A stretch of 64,000 nucleotides of DNA. Origin: Oscillospiraceae bacterium (GTDB lineage Bacteria; Bacillota; Clostridia; Oscillospirales; Ruminococcaceae). The stretch is from the NCBI GenBank assembly GCA_017481565.1, contig JAFUOZ010000014.1, positions 1 through 64,000 of the forward strand, in the 5' to 3' direction. The position numbers and the translations under genes are program-made. The notes beneath the pieces were generated by a model. It did no database searches. It worked only from the letters and a program-made list of their open reading frames with translations, and was not told the origin of the DNA. Below, in pieces: positions 15,508 through 45,200 of this stretch (position 1 is the stretch's first letter; each line of letters opens with the position of its first letter).

Positions 15508-15630
15508 TTATTACTTCGGCAATAATATAATTTGATTGCTCGGTGCTTGATTTTTCAAAAAAGTCGCAGATACGACAATTATTGTAATTTAGAAATAGTT
15601 AATCAAACTGTTTAATTGCCGAAGTAATAA
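15508..15630. mobile_element. MITE-like inverted-repeat element, TTACTTCGGCAAT family
   Basis: A 123-bp non-coding element with 30-bp terminal inverted repeats. The outer 16 bases (TTATTACTTCGGCAAT) are identical in both arms, then 7 differ, then TTTGATT matches again. It sits between the TSCPD gene and ohrR. The same 15-base end occurs once more at 30258-30272. No transposase is present in the window. Confidence 0.7.
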
Positions 15631-28054: not shown

Positions 28055-28681
28055 TTAATCGTTAGCTGATTTACCCTTAAGCAGATGTGAAATATGCTTG
28101 TAGAAGGGGAAAAGTATTGCTGTACATATCATGTATTTAAGGAATGTAAAGGGTGCATTGAAGATTATAAGAGATTCCATAATGCTTTCAACGGAAGGAA
28201 GAATTGCCTGATATGCACCGAGAATAGCTTCTTCGGGCATTGCTATTTTATAGTATACGGGATATACTATAAAATAGTTTGTAAGGATACAGCCTGCCGC
28301 AGAGATAAGCGCACCTGTTACAGAACCCATTATTGCGGAAATGCGGGTCTTTTTCTTCTGATAGATAAAACCTGCGGGCATAACGAACATTACGCCTAAA
28401 AGGAAGTTGGAAAGCTCGCCTATACCGCCTGTTCTTGTAATAAGAAGGTGGAGCAGATTTTTGATAAGGCATACGAAAACTCCCGAAACAGGTCCGAAGC
28501 AGTAGGATGCTATCAGTGCAGGCAGATCGGAAACGTCCATTTTAATGAACGAGGGCATAAAGGGCACTGAGAAATCAAGATACATAAGTGCAAATGCCAA
28601 TGCCGAAAGCATACCTGTTACTGTCATCATTCTGATGTTGGGGCGTTTTGACGCAGGGTTTGAAAGTGTTTTTGTGCTCAT
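28055..28681 (-). CDS. ribU: Riboflavin ECF transporter substrate-binding subunit RibU
   Basis: A 208-residue membrane protein with about six helices, of the S-component class of energy-coupling factor transporters. MLSALAFALMYLDFSVPFMPSFIKMD (in part: ALAFALMYLD, MPSFIKMDVSD) and LPALIASYCFGPVSG are typical of RibU. It binds riboflavin and needs the shared EcfA/A'/T module, which is not in this window. An FMN riboswitch directly upstream confirms the vitamin. SD AAAGGAG precedes ATG 28681. Transcribed alone and ended by a strong hairpin. Confidence 0.93.
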   Translation of the reverse strand: MSTKTLSNPASKRPNIRMMTVTGMLSALAFALMYLDFSVPFMPSFIKMDVSDLPALIASYCFGPVSGVFVCLIKNLLHLLITRTGGIGELSNFLLGVMFVMPAGFIYQKKKTRISAIMGSVTGALISAAGCILTNYFIVYPVYYKIAMPEEAILGAYQAILPSVESIMESLIIFNAPFTFLKYMICTAILFPFYKHISHLLKGKSAND

Positions 28682-28820: not shown

Positions 28821-28954
28821 TGCAATGTTTCTCTTATCCGGACTATACCGTCGGTTTCGGAATTTCACCGAATCGGCAGATACTGTGACTACAGCATCTG
28901 TTCGTGGACTTTACCACCGGTGAGGAATTTCACCTCGCCCTGAAACAGGTTGCA
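28821..28954 (-). ncRNA. FMN riboswitch (RFN element)
   Basis: Minus strand shows the RFN core: CAGGGCGAGGTGAAATTCCT, CCGGTGGTAAAGTCC, GGTGAAATTCCGAAACCGAC and GGTATAGTCCGGAT-AGAGA. P1 closes between TGCAA..GTTTC (28954 side) and GAAAC-TTGCA (28821 side). It binds FMN and lowers ribU expression through the terminator downstream. Confidence 0.97.
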
Positions 28955-30222: not shown

Positions 30223-30257
30223 TACCTTTTTTCATTATTTTTTGAAAAAAGTTTATT

Positions 30258-30272
30258 TTATTACTTCGGCAA
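30258..30272. repeat. Solitary end of the TTACTTCGGCAA repeat family
   Basis: Fifteen bases identical to the terminal repeat of the element at 15508-15630, just downstream of aroQ. No matching inverted partner was seen within several hundred bases, so it may be a remnant. Confidence 0.5.
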
Positions 30273-30283
30273 CAAAATATCTA

Positions 30284-30730
30284 TTATTTAAGGTCAGATA
30301 TCATATCTGAAACAGCCTTTACACCGAGAAGATAGCTGTTTTTGCCGAATCCGCATATCTGACCGCAGCATACGGGTGCAATGACCGATTTTTCTCTGAA
30401 AGCGTCACGGCTGTTTATATTTGAAATGTGAACCTCTACAACAGGGATCTTTATTGCGGCTATTGCGTCTCTGATTGCATAGCTGTAATGGGTATATGCC
30501 CCTGCGTTTATTACAACAGCGCATTTGTCAAGTCGTGCGGCATGGAGCCTGTCTATGATCTCTCCCTCATGATTTGACTGGAAGCACTCGCAGGACTCAA
30601 ATCCCAGTTCCTCAGCATATGCCTTTATTTCGGCGCATATGCTGTCGTATGTATCGTTTCCGTATATTCCCGGTTCTCTTTCTCCCAGAAGATTAAGGTT
30701 CGGTCCGTTTATTATAAGAAGATCTTTCAT
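30284..30730 (-). CDS. aroQ: 3-dehydroquinate dehydratase, type II
   Basis: A 148-residue enzyme of the shikimate pathway that dehydrates 3-dehydroquinate. It carries the type II motifs: INGPNLNLLGEREP, YGNDTYD with the catalytic Tyr, QSNHEGEIID, INAGAYTHYSYAIRDA, and EVHISN with the active His. It works as a dodecamer in the cytoplasm (family knowledge). SD GAAAGGAAA precedes the ATG. No other aro gene is nearby, so it is a stand-alone unit between efp and an intergenic repeat region. Confidence 0.96.
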   Translation of the reverse strand: MKDLLIINGPNLNLLGEREPGIYGNDTYDSICAEIKAYAEELGFESCECFQSNHEGEIIDRLHAARLDKCAVVINAGAYTHYSYAIRDAIAAIKIPVVEVHISNINSRDAFREKSVIAPVCCGQICGFGKNSYLLGVKAVSDMISDLK

Positions 30731-30803
30731 TTGATATTTTCCTTTCGTTTTCGTTCTTTTTGGTTAGAATTAGCATCTGTTATGTGCTGAAGGGGATTTC
30801 GCT

Positions 30804-30848
30804 GTCTGCGGACAGCGACAGGCGGTTCCTCGCCCCCTGTCCGCAGAC
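30804..30848. repeat. Intergenic palindrome, GTCTGCGGACAG arms
   Basis: Perfect 12-bp arms (30804-30815 with 30837-30848). The right part, CGCCCCCTGTCCGCAGACTA, recurs at about 42151-42171. It lies immediately left of the MITE-like insertion. Confidence 0.6.
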
Positions 30849-30850
30849 TA

Positions 30851-30960
30851 AGGAAACGCTGATTAAAGGCGCAGCTATCGATTACGCCGCACGAAAATGC
30901 CTTTGCCGCAGCGGCAAAATTGACTGAGTGGGGCGATAATCGATTTAATCAGCGGTTCCA
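30851..30960. mobile_element. MITE-like element inserted with TA target duplication
   Basis: A 110-bp non-coding element with terminal inverted repeats (AGGAAACGCTGATTAAA against TGGAACCGCTGATTAAA). TA flanks both sides (30849-30850 and 30961-30962). The paralogous sequence near 42161-42179 reads GACTAATGACCCC without the insertion. TA duplication is typical of IS630/mariner-type elements. A related copy, inverted, lies at 47607-47696. Confidence 0.8.
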
Positions 30961-31016
30961 TAATGACCCCTCGCCGCTTTTTTTGGGAAAAAAGTGGACA
31001 AAACCCTTTTATTGTG

Positions 31017-31883
31017 TTACTGCTTGGTATTTGCGCATTGCTCATAATATTTTTTCATGGTCTGTGCGTCCTCTGTCTGTGTACCTGCACTTTCACATAC
31101 AAATATGGGTGACAGGCTTTTCTTATATACAAGCTCCATAAGCGGCTCATACTGCGGACCATAGGTTGTGTCCTCAAATGTCAGGTGCTTTTTTTCGCCG
31201 CCCTTTAATGTATATTCTATCTTTGAAAAATGAGAATGGAATATCTTTAATCTGTCCGCACCTAATTTATTTTCTATTGTGTCAAGTATCTGCTTATATT
31301 CCTCTGCACCCTTTATCTCTCCGAAGGTACGCGCATTCAGATGACCGAAATCAATACAGGGGATAAAGCTGTCGTCAACCCTGCATAGCTCCATGACCTC
31401 ATTCAGATCACCTAACTGATTTACCTTGCCCATTGTTTCGGGACAGCAGTGTATATGTCCCAGTCCCTCGGAAACAAGTGCTTCTCTTGCTTTCTTCATG
31501 GTCTGCTTTGCAAGCCCCAGAGCTTCCTCACGGGTCATCTTTGAGCATGATCCGCTGTGGATCACTATCCTGTCTCCGCCCATTTTATCAACGGCTCTTG
31601 CAGATGCAAGGATATAGTTTATCGAATTATTTCGCTTTTCCTCTTCAACGCTTGAAAGGGATATGAAATAGGGAGCATGAACGGAAACGGTAATATTTTT
31701 TTCCGCCAATGCCTTTCCGAAGGTGACTGCCGCTTCATCTCCTATGCGCACACCCTGTCCGCACTGATATTCAAAGTGGTCAAGACCGAACTTTTCAAGA
31801 TATTCACCCAGCTGTACTGTCTTTTTATATCCCATAGTCTTAAAGCTTTCGCCTGTGCCGGCAGGTCCGAATTTTGCACTCAT
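31017..31883 (-). CDS. TIM-barrel protein of the endonuclease IV (Nfo) superfamily
   Basis: A 288-residue (beta-alpha)8 protein. Metal-ligand positions known from Nfo are visible: SVHAPYF, VIHSGSC, CPETMG, CIDFGHLNA, FHSHFS and CESAG. The usual Asp-x-His near the seventh strand reads KKH, so one ligand is changed. The protein may be an AP endonuclease, or a related sugar-phosphate isomerase-like enzyme with two metals only. The ATG at 31883 follows AGGAG. It stands alone between the repeat-rich region and the YwqG genes. Confidence 0.75.
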   Translation of the reverse strand: MSAKFGPAGTGESFKTMGYKKTVQLGEYLEKFGLDHFEYQCGQGVRIGDEAAVTFGKALAEKNITVSVHAPYFISLSSVEEEKRNNSINYILASARAVDKMGGDRIVIHSGSCSKMTREEALGLAKQTMKKAREALVSEGLGHIHCCPETMGKVNQLGDLNEVMELCRVDDSFIPCIDFGHLNARTFGEIKGAEEYKQILDTIENKLGADRLKIFHSHFSKIEYTLKGGEKKHLTFEDTTYGPQYEPLMELVYKKSLSPIFVCESAGTQTEDAQTMKKYYEQCANTKQ

Positions 31884-31919: not shown

Positions 31920-33344
31920 TCAGCAGCACTGCCATTCATATACTGCCTTTGAAAAATCCCTGCGCAGAAGCTGATCTCGGTTTATGAGGAAATATCCCAT
32001 ACCGCTGTCGCCCCATGAAATATCCTCGGACATTTTTCCGCCATGATACATACTGCATAACTGAAATAACAGCACATCTGCATCGCTGAGCTTTTCGTTA
32101 TTTATACGGGGGTCCTCCTGCACAAAGTTGGGATATCCGCCGATACAGCTTATATCGGGTATCTCGCAAAGCTCACATATTTCCATTAATACGTCCTCAT
32201 CGGGCTCTCCGCCGCATATCTGCCCGACATATTTATCCTCGCCTTGTCTGAAATGATAGTCACTATAGGTGACGGGCATATAAGATACATCCTCAGCTCT
32301 CAGATGAAATTCTCTGTAAAGAGGGAATTCTCTTTCGTTATCCTCAGGACCGGGAAACTGCGGCAGCTCATGCGCCTTATATAAAAATACGGGATTGTTC
32401 GTTATATTTTCATGATATACTACTCTGAAACAGGACTGATCTCTCTGATTTTCCATATTCATTCCGTAAAGCGTATCATCAAGGCAGAAGAACTGAAGTA
32501 TACCCTTTTCGGGAAAATCCTCTAAATGGGGGAGCTTTTCAAAATTAAGCTGTGCAAGAAAGCGCAGAGGTTTACCCTCATTTTCACCGCCCTTTGCCAC
32601 AGGATAGGGTCTTGTTTTCGGCCAGTAGGGAGTACCGCCTGCTTTGCTTTCGTAAACGTCAAGATTATTTGCAGGCACAGGAATAAGCTTTACATAAGGC
32701 TTTTTCGGATTATCGTTTTCGATGAGCCGTTTTATTTCAGCCGCCTGTTTTTTACAGTCGGTTTGCGGTTCATTCACGGGAGCAGACTGTTGTTTGCGTT
32801 CCTCAGCCTGTTTTGCCGCCTGCTTTGCTGCCATATAATCATCATGCTTCCGCTGATATTCAGCCTGTGCAGCTTGTGCCGCTTCTTCCTCGGCGGTATT
32901 TTTTCTGTGTCTGCGGACGATAAGCATACAGCCTGCAGCAAGCAGTACAATACCTGAGCCTATCTCAATAAGCGCCGTTTTCGCATAGGTTTTTTTGCTG
33001 CTTTGTGCAGGAACATCATTGACCGTTTCTCCTGCGATTATCTGCGGATTATAGCTGTTTATACTTATGACTACCTTTTCTCCCGCAGTCACTTCATGGT
33101 CATATTCAATGATTCCCTGACGGTCTATGCCGTTCTGATCGGTATAATCAATATAGGCTACCCACGATATTCCCGGGACCTCACGTACCTCCGTAACTGT
33201 TCCCACAGACTGTATGTAGCTTGGAGTGACAGCGGCGGATTTGTCTATGTTGACGATACCGCCCACAAGGCAGATAAGTCCTATTGCCGCAAAAGCAATT
33301 CCTATACCGAAGCGTTTATAAAGCTTTCTTAAAATGTAATTCAT
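31920..33344 (-). CDS. YwqG-family (DUF1963) protein with N-terminal membrane domain
   Basis: A 474-residue protein. The N-terminal 150 residues have two membrane helices (about 12-30 and 122-142) around a DUF3592-like extracellular beta domain. A charged coiled coil follows (about 145-205). The C-terminal YwqG domain (210-474) has GGTPYWPKTRPYP, LRFLAQLNFEKLPHL, FPEKGILQFF, GGYPNFVQEDPR and WGDSGMGYFLI. YwqG proteins have no firm function. The next gene upstream is a soluble YwqG paralogue. A small inverted-repeat element lies between them. Confidence 0.82.
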   Translation of the reverse strand: MNYILRKLYKRFGIGIAFAAIGLICLVGGIVNIDKSAAVTPSYIQSVGTVTEVREVPGISWVAYIDYTDQNGIDRQGIIEYDHEVTAGEKVVISINSYNPQIIAGETVNDVPAQSSKKTYAKTALIEIGSGIVLLAAGCMLIVRRHRKNTAEEEAAQAAQAEYQRKHDDYMAAKQAAKQAEERKQQSAPVNEPQTDCKKQAAEIKRLIENDNPKKPYVKLIPVPANNLDVYESKAGGTPYWPKTRPYPVAKGGENEGKPLRFLAQLNFEKLPHLEDFPEKGILQFFCLDDTLYGMNMENQRDQSCFRVVYHENITNNPVFLYKAHELPQFPGPEDNEREFPLYREFHLRAEDVSYMPVTYSDYHFRQGEDKYVGQICGGEPDEDVLMEICELCEIPDISCIGGYPNFVQEDPRINNEKLSDADVLLFQLCSMYHGGKMSEDISWGDSGMGYFLINRDQLLRRDFSKAVYEWQCC

Positions 33345-33488: not shown

Positions 33489-34610
33489 TCAGCAGCAGTC
33501 CCATGTAAAGATAACTCTTGAAAAATCAAGTGCCTTAAGTCTGTCACGGGGGATAAAGAAGCTTCCTATTCCGCAGTCTCCCCACATTATATAGTTTTCG
33601 CTTACAGACTGGAAAAGCAGGATATCGCAGTCAGCATATTTTTCGTCAAATCGGGGATCGTCCTGTGTAAAATCGGGATATCCGCCCATGCAGGTGGTTT
33701 CGTTCCTGCGTTCCTGAAAAATCCCGTCTATCTCATCTTTCGAAAAGCCGTTATTTATCATATCCTTGATAGTTCTGATCTGACAGCCGCAGCGTTCACC
33801 GCAGTATTTCAGCAGTCTGCTGTAAAATTCAAAACAGTTTGCTGTGGGCTTACATTCCGTAAGTACAGGCTCAAGGAGCATTGTGAAGTTTTCATCGAAA
33901 GGAAAATCAACACTTTCGATAGGGGGCATATCCTCTGCGGATAAAAGCATGGATCTGTCTGTGATGATATTTTCATGGTATATCACACGGAAACCGTTTT
34001 GGAGTGTAAGCTCGTCATAATCCATACCGTAGGAATAATCAGCGTCATTGGGGGAGCCGAAAAACTGTAAAATACCCTTTTCGGGGAAGTCCTTGATATG
34101 AGGGAGACGCTCAAAATTAAGCTGTGCGATAAGCTGTAAGGGCATACCCTCATAATTGCCCTTTCCCATAGGATATTCAAAATCCTTTGGCATATAGGGA
34201 ACGCCGCCTATCTTGCTGTCAAAAATATCTGTATCGGTAATAACAGTATTGAATTTAAGCATCTGTCTGCTGCCAAGCTCGTTATCTATTCTTTCGATGA
34301 TATCTTTAATATTGTATTTCGGTTCTGCTCTCTGCGCCTTAACAGGCTTTTCACGGTCGATATTATCATATAACCCCATATCATTCAGGGAATCAACCAT
34401 ATTTCCCATAAGCTCGGACATTTCCTGAAAGGTACGGGGCTTTTTATCGGCGAAAATTTCTCCTGTTGAGGGGTCATGCTTCATAAGCTCATTTGTCAGA
34501 GCATTTCGGAACATATCCAGCATATTCATTTTCATTTCTTCGCTTAATTCGGATTGTTCCTTGGGCATAAATCCGAATTGGATCAGCATATCATTTTCCT
34601 CTTTCATCAT
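33489..34610 (-). CDS. YwqG-family (DUF1963) protein, soluble
   Basis: A 373-residue protein without membrane helices. An N-terminal helical part of about 100 residues precedes the YwqG domain: KIGGVPYMPKDFEYP, LQLIAQLNFERLPHI, FPEKGILQFF, GGYPDFTQDDPR, and MWGDCGIGSFFIPRD near the end. Domain and tail (WDCC here, WQCC in the neighbour) closely match the protein at 31920, so the pair arose by duplication, with gain of a membrane part in one. Its ATG overlaps the yqeG stop by one base (TAATG), so the two are translationally coupled. Function unknown. Confidence 0.85.
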   Translation of the reverse strand: MMKEENDMLIQFGFMPKEQSELSEEMKMNMLDMFRNALTNELMKHDPSTGEIFADKKPRTFQEMSELMGNMVDSLNDMGLYDNIDREKPVKAQRAEPKYNIKDIIERIDNELGSRQMLKFNTVITDTDIFDSKIGGVPYMPKDFEYPMGKGNYEGMPLQLIAQLNFERLPHIKDFPEKGILQFFGSPNDADYSYGMDYDELTLQNGFRVIYHENIITDRSMLLSAEDMPPIESVDFPFDENFTMLLEPVLTECKPTANCFEFYSRLLKYCGERCGCQIRTIKDMINNGFSKDEIDGIFQERRNETTCMGGYPDFTQDDPRFDEKYADCDILLFQSVSENYIMWGDCGIGSFFIPRDRLKALDFSRVIFTWDCC

Positions 34611-41908: not shown

Positions 41909-42149
41909 ATAATTTTTTTATTTTTCTCAGATCTTGGTTTTGTTCATTGAATATTAAAATCAGAATAATACAAAAAACTGTAATTTTAATATTAAATCAA
42001 TAAAAAATATGAAATAATAAAAGAATAGTAATAGAAAAACTGATAAAAAAATAAATGCAAAAATGTGCAGCACAAATCACACGGGCGGAACGAATGTTAC
42101 CGGACAAAGAAAAAAATACAGACTTTTCTTTCTCTCTGTTCGGAGATTC

Positions 42150-42180
42150 TCCGCCCCCTGTCCGCAGACTAATGACCCCC
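42150..42180. repeat. Unoccupied copy of the MITE target repeat
   Basis: CCGCCCCCTGTCCGCAGACT followed by AATGACCCC, matching both flanks of the element at 30851-30960 but with a single TA (42170-42171) in place of the 110-bp insertion. A GCTTTTTTG stretch shortly downstream is also shared. Confidence 0.75.
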
Positions 42181-42226
42181 TTGCAAGCCGTAGTCAGCTT
42201 GACCGCTTTTTTGGGTGCGCTTGTTA

Positions 42227-45200
42227 TTATGTTATATCTTCGGCGGGGGGCTGCTCCATTTTCAGAAGCTTGGATACGCCCTTCTGCTGCATGGTCACTC
42301 CATACATTACATCGGCTTCCTCCATTGTGCCTCTTCTGTGCGTAACAGTGATAAACTGTGTTGTATCCGTAAAATGACGTAAATATTTCGCATACCTGCT
42401 TACGTTTACATCGTCAAGTGCAGCTTCGATCTCATCAAGTATACAGAATGGCGCCGGCTTTATCTTAAGTATAGCAAAATAAAGCGCTATTGCAACAAAC
42501 GCCTGCTCACCGCCCGATAATAAGGAAAGGCTCTTGATCACCTTTCCCGGAGGTGCAACATTTATTTCAATTCCCGATTCCAGTACGTCCTCGGGATTGC
42601 TCAGTACAAGCTCAGCCTTTCCGCCCTCGAAAAGCTCAACGAATATACTTTTGAAATTCTCGTTTATTAAATTGAAGCTTTCACTGAACTGCTTTCTCAT
42701 GGCTTCGGTAAGCTCATCAATGATGTCCTCCAGCTTCTTCTTTGATGTTTCAACATCGTCAAGCTGTCCTGACATGAAGCTGTATTGCTCGGATACTTCC
42801 TTATATTCTTCAATGGCAGCTACATTGACATTTCCCAATGCACGTATTTTCTGCTTTACCTCGGTAAGCTCCCTTTGTACCTGTATGAGATTTTCAACAG
42901 GCTGTGCAAGCTTTTCAGCTTCGGATAAGTATAATTCATACTGCTCCTCCATTGAGCGTATTATGTCGTCACAGTTATTCTGAACAGTACTCCTGCGCTC
43001 TTCAAGACGTGTTTTTTCGGCAGCGAATTTCTCCTTGCTGTCAGCAAGCTCTCTGCTCTTACGGCGGAGGACAGTCGCTTCCTGCTCCTTATCCCTGCTT
43101 TCTGACTGTGTATCGGAAATGCCTGCATTTATCTGATTTATGCGGCTGTCCGTATCGGCAAGCTCGGCTTCTGAACGTTCTATCTTTTTATTGTTTTCTT
43201 CGATAAGACGCATCTGTTCATCAATAAGCAGAACAAGCTTTGCACTGTCATCGCCTAAAGCACGTCGCTGCTCCTCGATACGCTCCACAGCTTCGGCAAG
43301 AGCTTCCTTGTCCTTGATAAGACCTGCTTCGCTGATCTTAAGCTGTGATAATTTTTCCGAAAGCGATTCTCTTTCCGCATGAAGTTCAGTTCTCTTTTCA
43401 GAGCTTGCACCTGCGGAGCTTTCGGTTTTCCCGATCTTTTCGTTTATGCTGCCGAGACGCTTTTCGGCTTCCTCTGCTTCACGTTCTATCTGTGAAAGAC
43501 GCTGTCTTAACAGTTCAGCCTGATCTCCCGAAGAAGCGATCTGCTTTTTTGTCTGTTCATAGACCGAATCAATACGTTTGATCTCTGCATCAAAGCGTAC
43601 TCTGTCATTCTCTATCTGACGCAGCTTTTCCTTTGCGTCCTCAATATCAAAAGCAAGCTTATCTGTTTCAGCTTTCAGCTTGTCATGGGATATTTTAAGC
43701 TCGGACATACTTTCCGAAAGCTCGTCTCTCTGTGACGAAAGCTCATCGATCTCGGTCTTTCTGGTAAGTACGCCTGTTGATTTTGTATTTGAGCCGCCCG
43801 TAAACGAACCGCCTGCATTGATGACCTGTCCGTCAAGGGTCACTATCCTGAATTTATATCCGAAACGCTTTGCAATTACGGTACCGCAGTCGATATCCTC
43901 GCATACGGCGATACGTCCAAGCAGAGAGTTTACTATTCCTGTATATTTTTCATCATAAGAAACAAGCTCAGCCGCAAGTGCGATAAAGCCGTCACAATCC
44001 TCAAGACCTCTTTCTGTGAGACGGTTTCCCTTTACCGATGTAAGAGGGAGAAAGGTTGCTCGTCCTGCACGGTTTTCCTGCAAAAATCTGATGCAGTATT
44101 TTGCAGCTTCTTCGTTTTCAACAACGATATTCTGCAGTGCGCCGCCAAGAGCGATCTCAATGGCTGTGGAGTATTGATTTTCAACGGTAACAAGCTGTGC
44201 CACCGAACCGTGAACACCTCTGATACGTCCCTGCTTTGAGCCTTTGAGCACCTGTCTTACCGCATTATTGAAGCCCTCCATTGAGTTTTCAAGACCTGTC
44301 AGGAAGTTGATCTTCTGCTCCAGCTCACGTATTTTAAAGCTTGTATCGTTCATCTCTTTTGACACTGCCGCAAGCTTTGAGGATTTTGTTTCGTACAGAC
44401 GGGTTATTCCGCTGAGACGATTTTCCTGTTCGGTCTTTCTGTCGTCAAGGAGACGGTTTCCGCTGAGAACATCTTCCTTTTCCTCGTCCAGAGCGTCAAG
44501 GCTTTCGTGGAGTGACTGCGCCTGTTCGGTGCAGAGTGCCAGCTGTCTGCGGATATCCTCGCCTCCTGAACGTCCTGTTTCGATAGCGGCGGTGTATCTT
44601 GAACGTGTTATATATAAGTTATTCAGCTCGCTGCTTTCCGATTCATACTGTTTATCAATGCTTTCCTGCTCGCTTATGAGTTCTGAAAGCTTTTTTTCGG
44701 TTTCGGAATACTGCTTCTGTGCATCGGCGATATTCTGTTCCGTTTCCTTGATAAGAGCAAGCTTTTTTTCTATTTCGGCGGCAGTTTCGGCATCGGAATT
44801 TTCCGCATTTTCCTGACTGCGCCTGTATTCAGCGATCTTTTCCTCGCTGTGACGGATATCGTTTCTGCATACGGCGATATCTGAGTGGAGCTGTGTATTT
44901 GAACGCTCGATCTCCTGTATTTTCTGTCTCAGCTCGTCGATTCTGATCTGACTGTCCTGCATATCGCGCATAAGCTCCTGCATACGCTGCTCGGTGCGCT
45001 CGATATCCGCTTCGGTGTTGTTGTATTCATTGGTGCTGATAAGTATTTTTTCCTCTAACTCGTCAATGACTGTTTTAAGGTCGGAAAGCTGACGTACCCA
45101 TACGGTGATCTCAAGGGATTTTTTTTCCTCCGAAAGAGTGATGAATTTAGCCGCCTTTTCCGACTGTATACGCAGAGGTTCAACTCTTGCTTCAAGAGCT

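Follow-up and report, generated by a model that had tools for sequence, protein, structure and literature searches.

The 108-bp repeat before an aroQ-like gene in this Oscillospiraceae bacterium raises two questions: which enzyme family would move it, and what keeps its two arms matched. The window, meaning the whole stretch of DNA that was analysed, comprises 64,000 nucleotides (contig JAFUOZ010000014.1, positions 1 to 64,000). The first-pass annotation described a 110-bp MITE-like element at 30851-30960, with 17-bp imperfect terminal repeats and a TA target duplication, and attributed it to an IS630/mariner-type transposase. The element was indeed present with the flanks as described and its 17-bp repeats match at 15 of 17 bases, but the boundaries were corrected to 30852-30959. 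It is short, carries no transposase and lies in the intergenic region before the aroQ-like gene. Its parts and surroundings are as follows.

30284 to 30730, reverse strand: downstream gene, which we take from its sequence to be aroQ (3-dehydroquinate dehydratase-like)
30762 to 31008: host repeat split by the element, about 138 bp when the element is removed
30848 to 30851: left copy of the 4-bp target duplication, CTAA
30852 to 30959, forward strand: MITE copy, 108 bp, GGAA...TTCC, with IS5-type ends GGAA[N]CGCTGATTAA
30852 to 30866, forward strand: left terminal inverted repeat GGAAACGCTGATTAA
30868 to 30876, forward strand: mini-hairpin of 3 bp with a GNA loop (GGC-GCA-GCT in this copy), beside the left end only
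30877 to 30892, forward strand: left arm of the co-varying inner stem
30892 to 30928, forward strand: conserved apical region CGAAAAT...ACTGAG
30902 to 30918: extra hairpin TTTGCCGCAGCGGCAAA, splitting the apical region in the 108-bp class
30928 to 30944, forward strand: right arm of the co-varying inner stem
30945 to 30959, reverse strand: right terminal inverted repeat GGAACCGCTGATTAA
30960 to 30963: right copy of the target duplication, ATAA, with one mismatch to the left copy
31017 to 31883, reverse strand: upstream gene, presumably, from its sequence, encoding a sugar isomerase/endonuclease-IV-like TIM-barrel protein
42152 to 42179, forward strand: second host-repeat copy with an unbroken junction

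The genome-wide search that the first-pass annotation had proposed was performed on the window's own genome. The end sequence GGAANCNCTGATTAA, with at most one mismatch, was found at 218 ends, corresponding to about 110 copies in 2.45 Mb, and a reversed-pattern control gave 0 matches; searching with the element itself gave 144 candidates, at least 40 of them scored copies. Two length classes are present, of 107-109 bp and 88-90 bp (the 108-bp and 89-bp classes), the shorter without the hairpin TTTGCCGCAGCGGCAAA. The copies lie in unrelated flanks, each with its own duplication. Because these flanks differ, with no extended stretch common to the copies, and the terminal repeats are conserved, the reading as a mobile element survives. 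Some copies stand in tandem with only one TTAA between them (examples are C6:10744-10925 and C79:19541-19722), the pattern expected if a newer copy enters the duplication of an older one.

Positions relative to genes were taken from rough ORF calls. By these, 63 of the 72 copies fall outside any ORF of at least 70 codons, a raw count for which no expectation was computed. Tandem genes enclose 33 copies, convergent genes 17 and divergent genes nine; gene 3′ ends lie at a median of 54 bp from a copy, 5′ ends at a median of 118 bp. Between tandem genes, 22 copies have the same orientation as the genes and 11 the opposite one, a weak bias.

On either strand the element folds into one long stem, with a z-score of about −5.5 against dinucleotide shuffles. 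Among 32 copies of the long class, seven inner-stem pairs showed changes on both sides (47 cells; shuffles gave 16.8 and slid controls no more than 11); in the short class, such changes were seen in 11 pairs. An ungapped alignment of 17 short-class copies was assembled from three genera, namely from the own genome (G000), its congeners G001, G002 and G003, and G052 and G325. Here two-sided changes occurred in 14 of 31 pairs, 11 of them within the 16-pair inner stem, with 46 cells versus 11.9 in shuffles and at most seven in slid controls. Related copies inflate these cell counts; nonetheless, the number of pairs and of pair types exceeded that of all 500 shuffles. The percentages of paired positions lean towards the structure, since it was derived from one copy and the consensus and the alignment holds no gaps. 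The mini-hairpin loop is mostly GNA, with a middle pair that flips between CG and GC among copies, and the loop CGAAAATNCGTNACTGAG recurs in elements with these ends in G001, G002, G003, G052, G138 and G325.

One explanation for the paired changes is that the inner stem acts as a functional RNA, processed or bound by protein after read-through transcription, so that pairing is kept by selection on the RNA. The two-sided changes across G000-G003, G052 and G325 would fit, as would a loop conserved in several genera, and MITE stem-loops in Neisseria transcripts are known RNase III substrates (PMC2229807). However, RNA selection should tolerate wobble, and three alignments contained only 2, 4 and 2 G-T states, compared with 8, 10 and 15 additional Watson-Crick states, all of these being states and not independent events. 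Other non-pairing states (4, 10 and 6) were no rarer than G-T. The element has no match in Rfam at the curated score, and copies are found in both orientations relative to tandem genes. Selection on the RNA is thus considered unlikely. Because wobble states are scarce, whereas selection on a transcript should make G-U common, matching of the arms at the DNA level is favoured; the counts are suggestive of arms kept complementary most likely on the DNA, either by templated correction of one arm from the other or by a requirement for a hairpin or cruciform. Whether the co-varying stem, GNA mini-hairpin and loop CGAAAATNCGTNACTGAG together form a conserved core, common to MITEs of several genera, that functions in its own right as folded RNA or folded single-stranded DNA, with the IS5-type ends as its vehicle, seems doubtful, though it deserves some credit.

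The target duplication bears directly on the enzyme. An exact 4-mer stood at both ends in 57 of the 72 copies extracted with their flanks, and no copy gave lengths of 3 or 5. The motif is N-TA-N, with TTAA at 46 of 72 left and 49 of 72 right sites and YTAR at 54 of 72 left sites. As TTAA dominates the targets, the comparison was repeated with random pairing of left and right 4-mers; 20,000 trials gave a mean of 32 matches and a maximum of 42, versus 57 observed. Sites other than TTAA also match within a copy (CTAG/CTAG, GTAG/GTAG, ATAT/ATAT, TTAT/TTAT, CTAT/CTAT and ATAA/ATAA). The outer bases vary among copies and agree within one, so the base beside TA belongs to the target and not to the element, and a duplication of TA alone, as first annotated, fails. 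The copy in the window, with CTAA/ATAA, is one change short of a perfect duplication.

A matching transposase was sought among related bacteria, and the end pattern was scanned across 397 genomes of the family, where several genera were indicated. In G180 such an end adjoins a truncated IS5-family transposase, and from it 57 related loci were identified in reference genomes. Many of these are bounded by GGAA[ACG]C[AGT]CTGATTAA or by near or one-step variants, with 4-bp duplications: CTAG at L139-L142, CTAA at L118, L129 and L136, CTAT at L120 and TTAG at L147. Their transposases belong to NF033581 (IS5 family; E-values of 8e-87 to 7e-93) and to Pfam DDE_Tnp_1; no sequence relative of the transposase was found in the PDB. 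Intact IS5-family elements in related Clostridia measure about 1.2 kb, and their 15-bp ends are the same or nearly so. Two genomes of the same family as that of the window, G225 and G314, contain both intact IS5 copies and short elements with the same ends.

In the own genome, an assembly that is 87% complete in 120 contigs, no intact IS5 element with matching ends was found. The sole PF01609 transposase there is a fragment at a contig end (G000 contig C111:3-374, L045/L066), which was rejected as the mover: it belongs to a different IS5 subgroup, NF033580, whose nearest relative, in G005, ends in GAGCCTGTTGACACTA. As the matching transposase was not found in this assembly, we infer transposition in trans, putatively by an IS5-family enzyme. 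A partner IS in the same genome is unnecessary for the family assignment and necessary for present mobility.

Given that intact IS5 elements have nearly the same ends and YTAR-type duplications, the likely mover is of the IS5 family and not IS630/mariner. We estimate the probability at about 0.9 that the window element is an IS5-family MITE, moved by the IS5 DDE transposase of a full-length element and inserting at a duplicated N-TA-N. The full-length element would supply the transposase, which would recognise the GGAANCGCTGATTAA ends; the unit would then insert at a 4-bp N-TA-N, mostly TTAA, and duplicate it. The MITE reading of the first-pass annotation (non-coding, mobile, with terminal inverted repeats and a target duplication) is thereby upheld apart from the length of the duplication.

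Mobilisation by an IS630/Tc1/mariner-type transposase with duplication of TA, as proposed for RUP in Streptococcus pneumoniae, would account for the TA at the centre of nearly every target and for a size and copy number near those of RUP (107 bp, 108 copies; PMC2229807). It is nevertheless very improbable: IS630 elements duplicate TA only (PMC2170065), whereas here the bases flanking TA differ among copies and are identical at both ends of a copy, giving 4 bp, and the ends match those of IS5-family elements. IS5 in Escherichia coli was reported to duplicate YTAR (PMC10359306).

Several further candidates were found in the genome scan. A 3-kb span in G138 (L098:1494-4509) has ends of the IS5 type with TTAG on both sides; it was rejected as an autonomous transposon, as it holds an adenine-methyltransferase-like gene (DNA methyltransferase-like) and no transposase; possibly, it is a composite that carries cargo. 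In G263, two ends 2.1 kb apart turned out to belong to separate short elements. Several other genomes have isolated ends that lack both a partner and an NTAN flank, and these probably match by chance within genes. The strict left-arm pattern had no match in viral contigs. Other genera of the family also carry short elements of 106-172 bp that form hairpins, share the IS5-type ends and have YTAR-like duplications but different interiors (L099-L104 in G314, L097 in G263, L108-L109 in G317, and L112/L115 in G225 and G138).

Spread as a REP-like palindrome by a RAYT (single-strand) transposase would suit a palindromic, intergenic unit of about 110 copies, but RAYT movement leaves no target duplication, and with a clear 4-bp duplication and ends matching an IS with a DDE transposase, its probability is negligible.

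The sequence into which the element inserted was examined as well. The claim of an empty-site paralogue in the window holds: the joined flanks of the window copy match 42152-42179 at 28 of 28 bp across the junction (E = 1e-10). Searching for other empty sites, as had also been advised, gave a stronger paralogue on contig C89 (L034), a longer match of 138 bp at 90.6% identity (E = 2e-48) without the element and with CTAA at the target. The host repeat has about 12 copies in the genome, built of interchangeable palindromic modules, which bears out the annotation of one repeat family inside another. In the congener G002, the two flanking genes are separated by about 120 bp, and this orthologous, short aroQ intergenic region contains neither repeat nor element. 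The window copy would represent insertion into the CTAA of a repeat that is older and unrelated. Instead of transposition, segmental duplication or recombination between repeats might be considered, as the host sequence is itself repeated, yet this is almost certainly wrong, given that the other copies have unrelated flanks and carry duplications of their own.

This host repeat forms a separate intergenic family of about 140 bp (30762-31008, interrupted; about 42142-42230; L032-L042), found in each of the four genomes searched within the genus. Modules such as TGTCCGCAGAC, GCAAGCTGGAGTCAGCTTGACC and GGGGCGCTGCCCC are swapped among its copies, a modular build that recalls the pneumococcal BOX elements. 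There is also a third small repeat, ATTGCCGAAGTAATAA, which forms an inverted pair with its complement at 15508-15630 and occurs at 30247-30277, in the flanks of L014 and L036, and as single copies elsewhere in the genome. The window also contains an FMN riboswitch (RF00050, 110 bits) at 28822-28951 on the minus strand, upstream of an ORF (28055-28681) for a membrane protein resembling a riboflavin transporter. The adjacent minus-strand ORFs 31920-33344 and 33489-34610 are diverged paralogues (sharing the DNA repeats D1 and D5, 74-75% alike), which probably arose when a DUF1963/YwqG-like gene was duplicated in tandem.

Compared with the IS5 family (NF033581 transpos_IS5_4, Clostridia), the window element shares the 15-bp ends GGAANCNCTGATTAA or near variants and the 4-bp YTAR/NTAN duplication, but it is 108 bp long and has no transposase. 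MITEs of the IS5 type are already known, namely BrickBuilt of Porphyromonas gingivalis and ATR of Neisseria meningitidis (PMC4596501); these are likewise short, non-coding, intergenic and stem-loop forming with IS5-family ends, and differ in sequence and host phylum. BrickBuilt has 23-nt tandem repeats and irregular duplications, whereas the present family has a regular 4-bp duplication and a co-varying inner stem. Intergenic MITEs of 107 bp such as RUP are known too (PMC2229807; PMC3049150). RUP resembles this family in length, intergenic position, about 110 copies, IS-like ends and a single long stem, but it was assigned to IS630-Spn1 with TA, and this family is IS5-type with 4 bp. The Correia/NEMIS elements of Neisseria are also MITEs of about 100-150 bp with a stem-loop, beside genes; their ends are different, and RNase III processing was shown for them. 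No published description of this family was found in the open literature searched, which gave partial coverage, and it appears to be a new family of IS5-type MITE.

The analysis changes which enzyme family would be expected to mobilise this repeat, and the 72 sites provide a clean sample, from nature, of the targets chosen in IS5-type insertion. The paired arm changes form an unusually clear record for this MITE family. With many copies in several genera, the set lends itself to testing how arm matching originates in MITEs, whether through selection on RNA, through selection on DNA hairpins or through templated correction.
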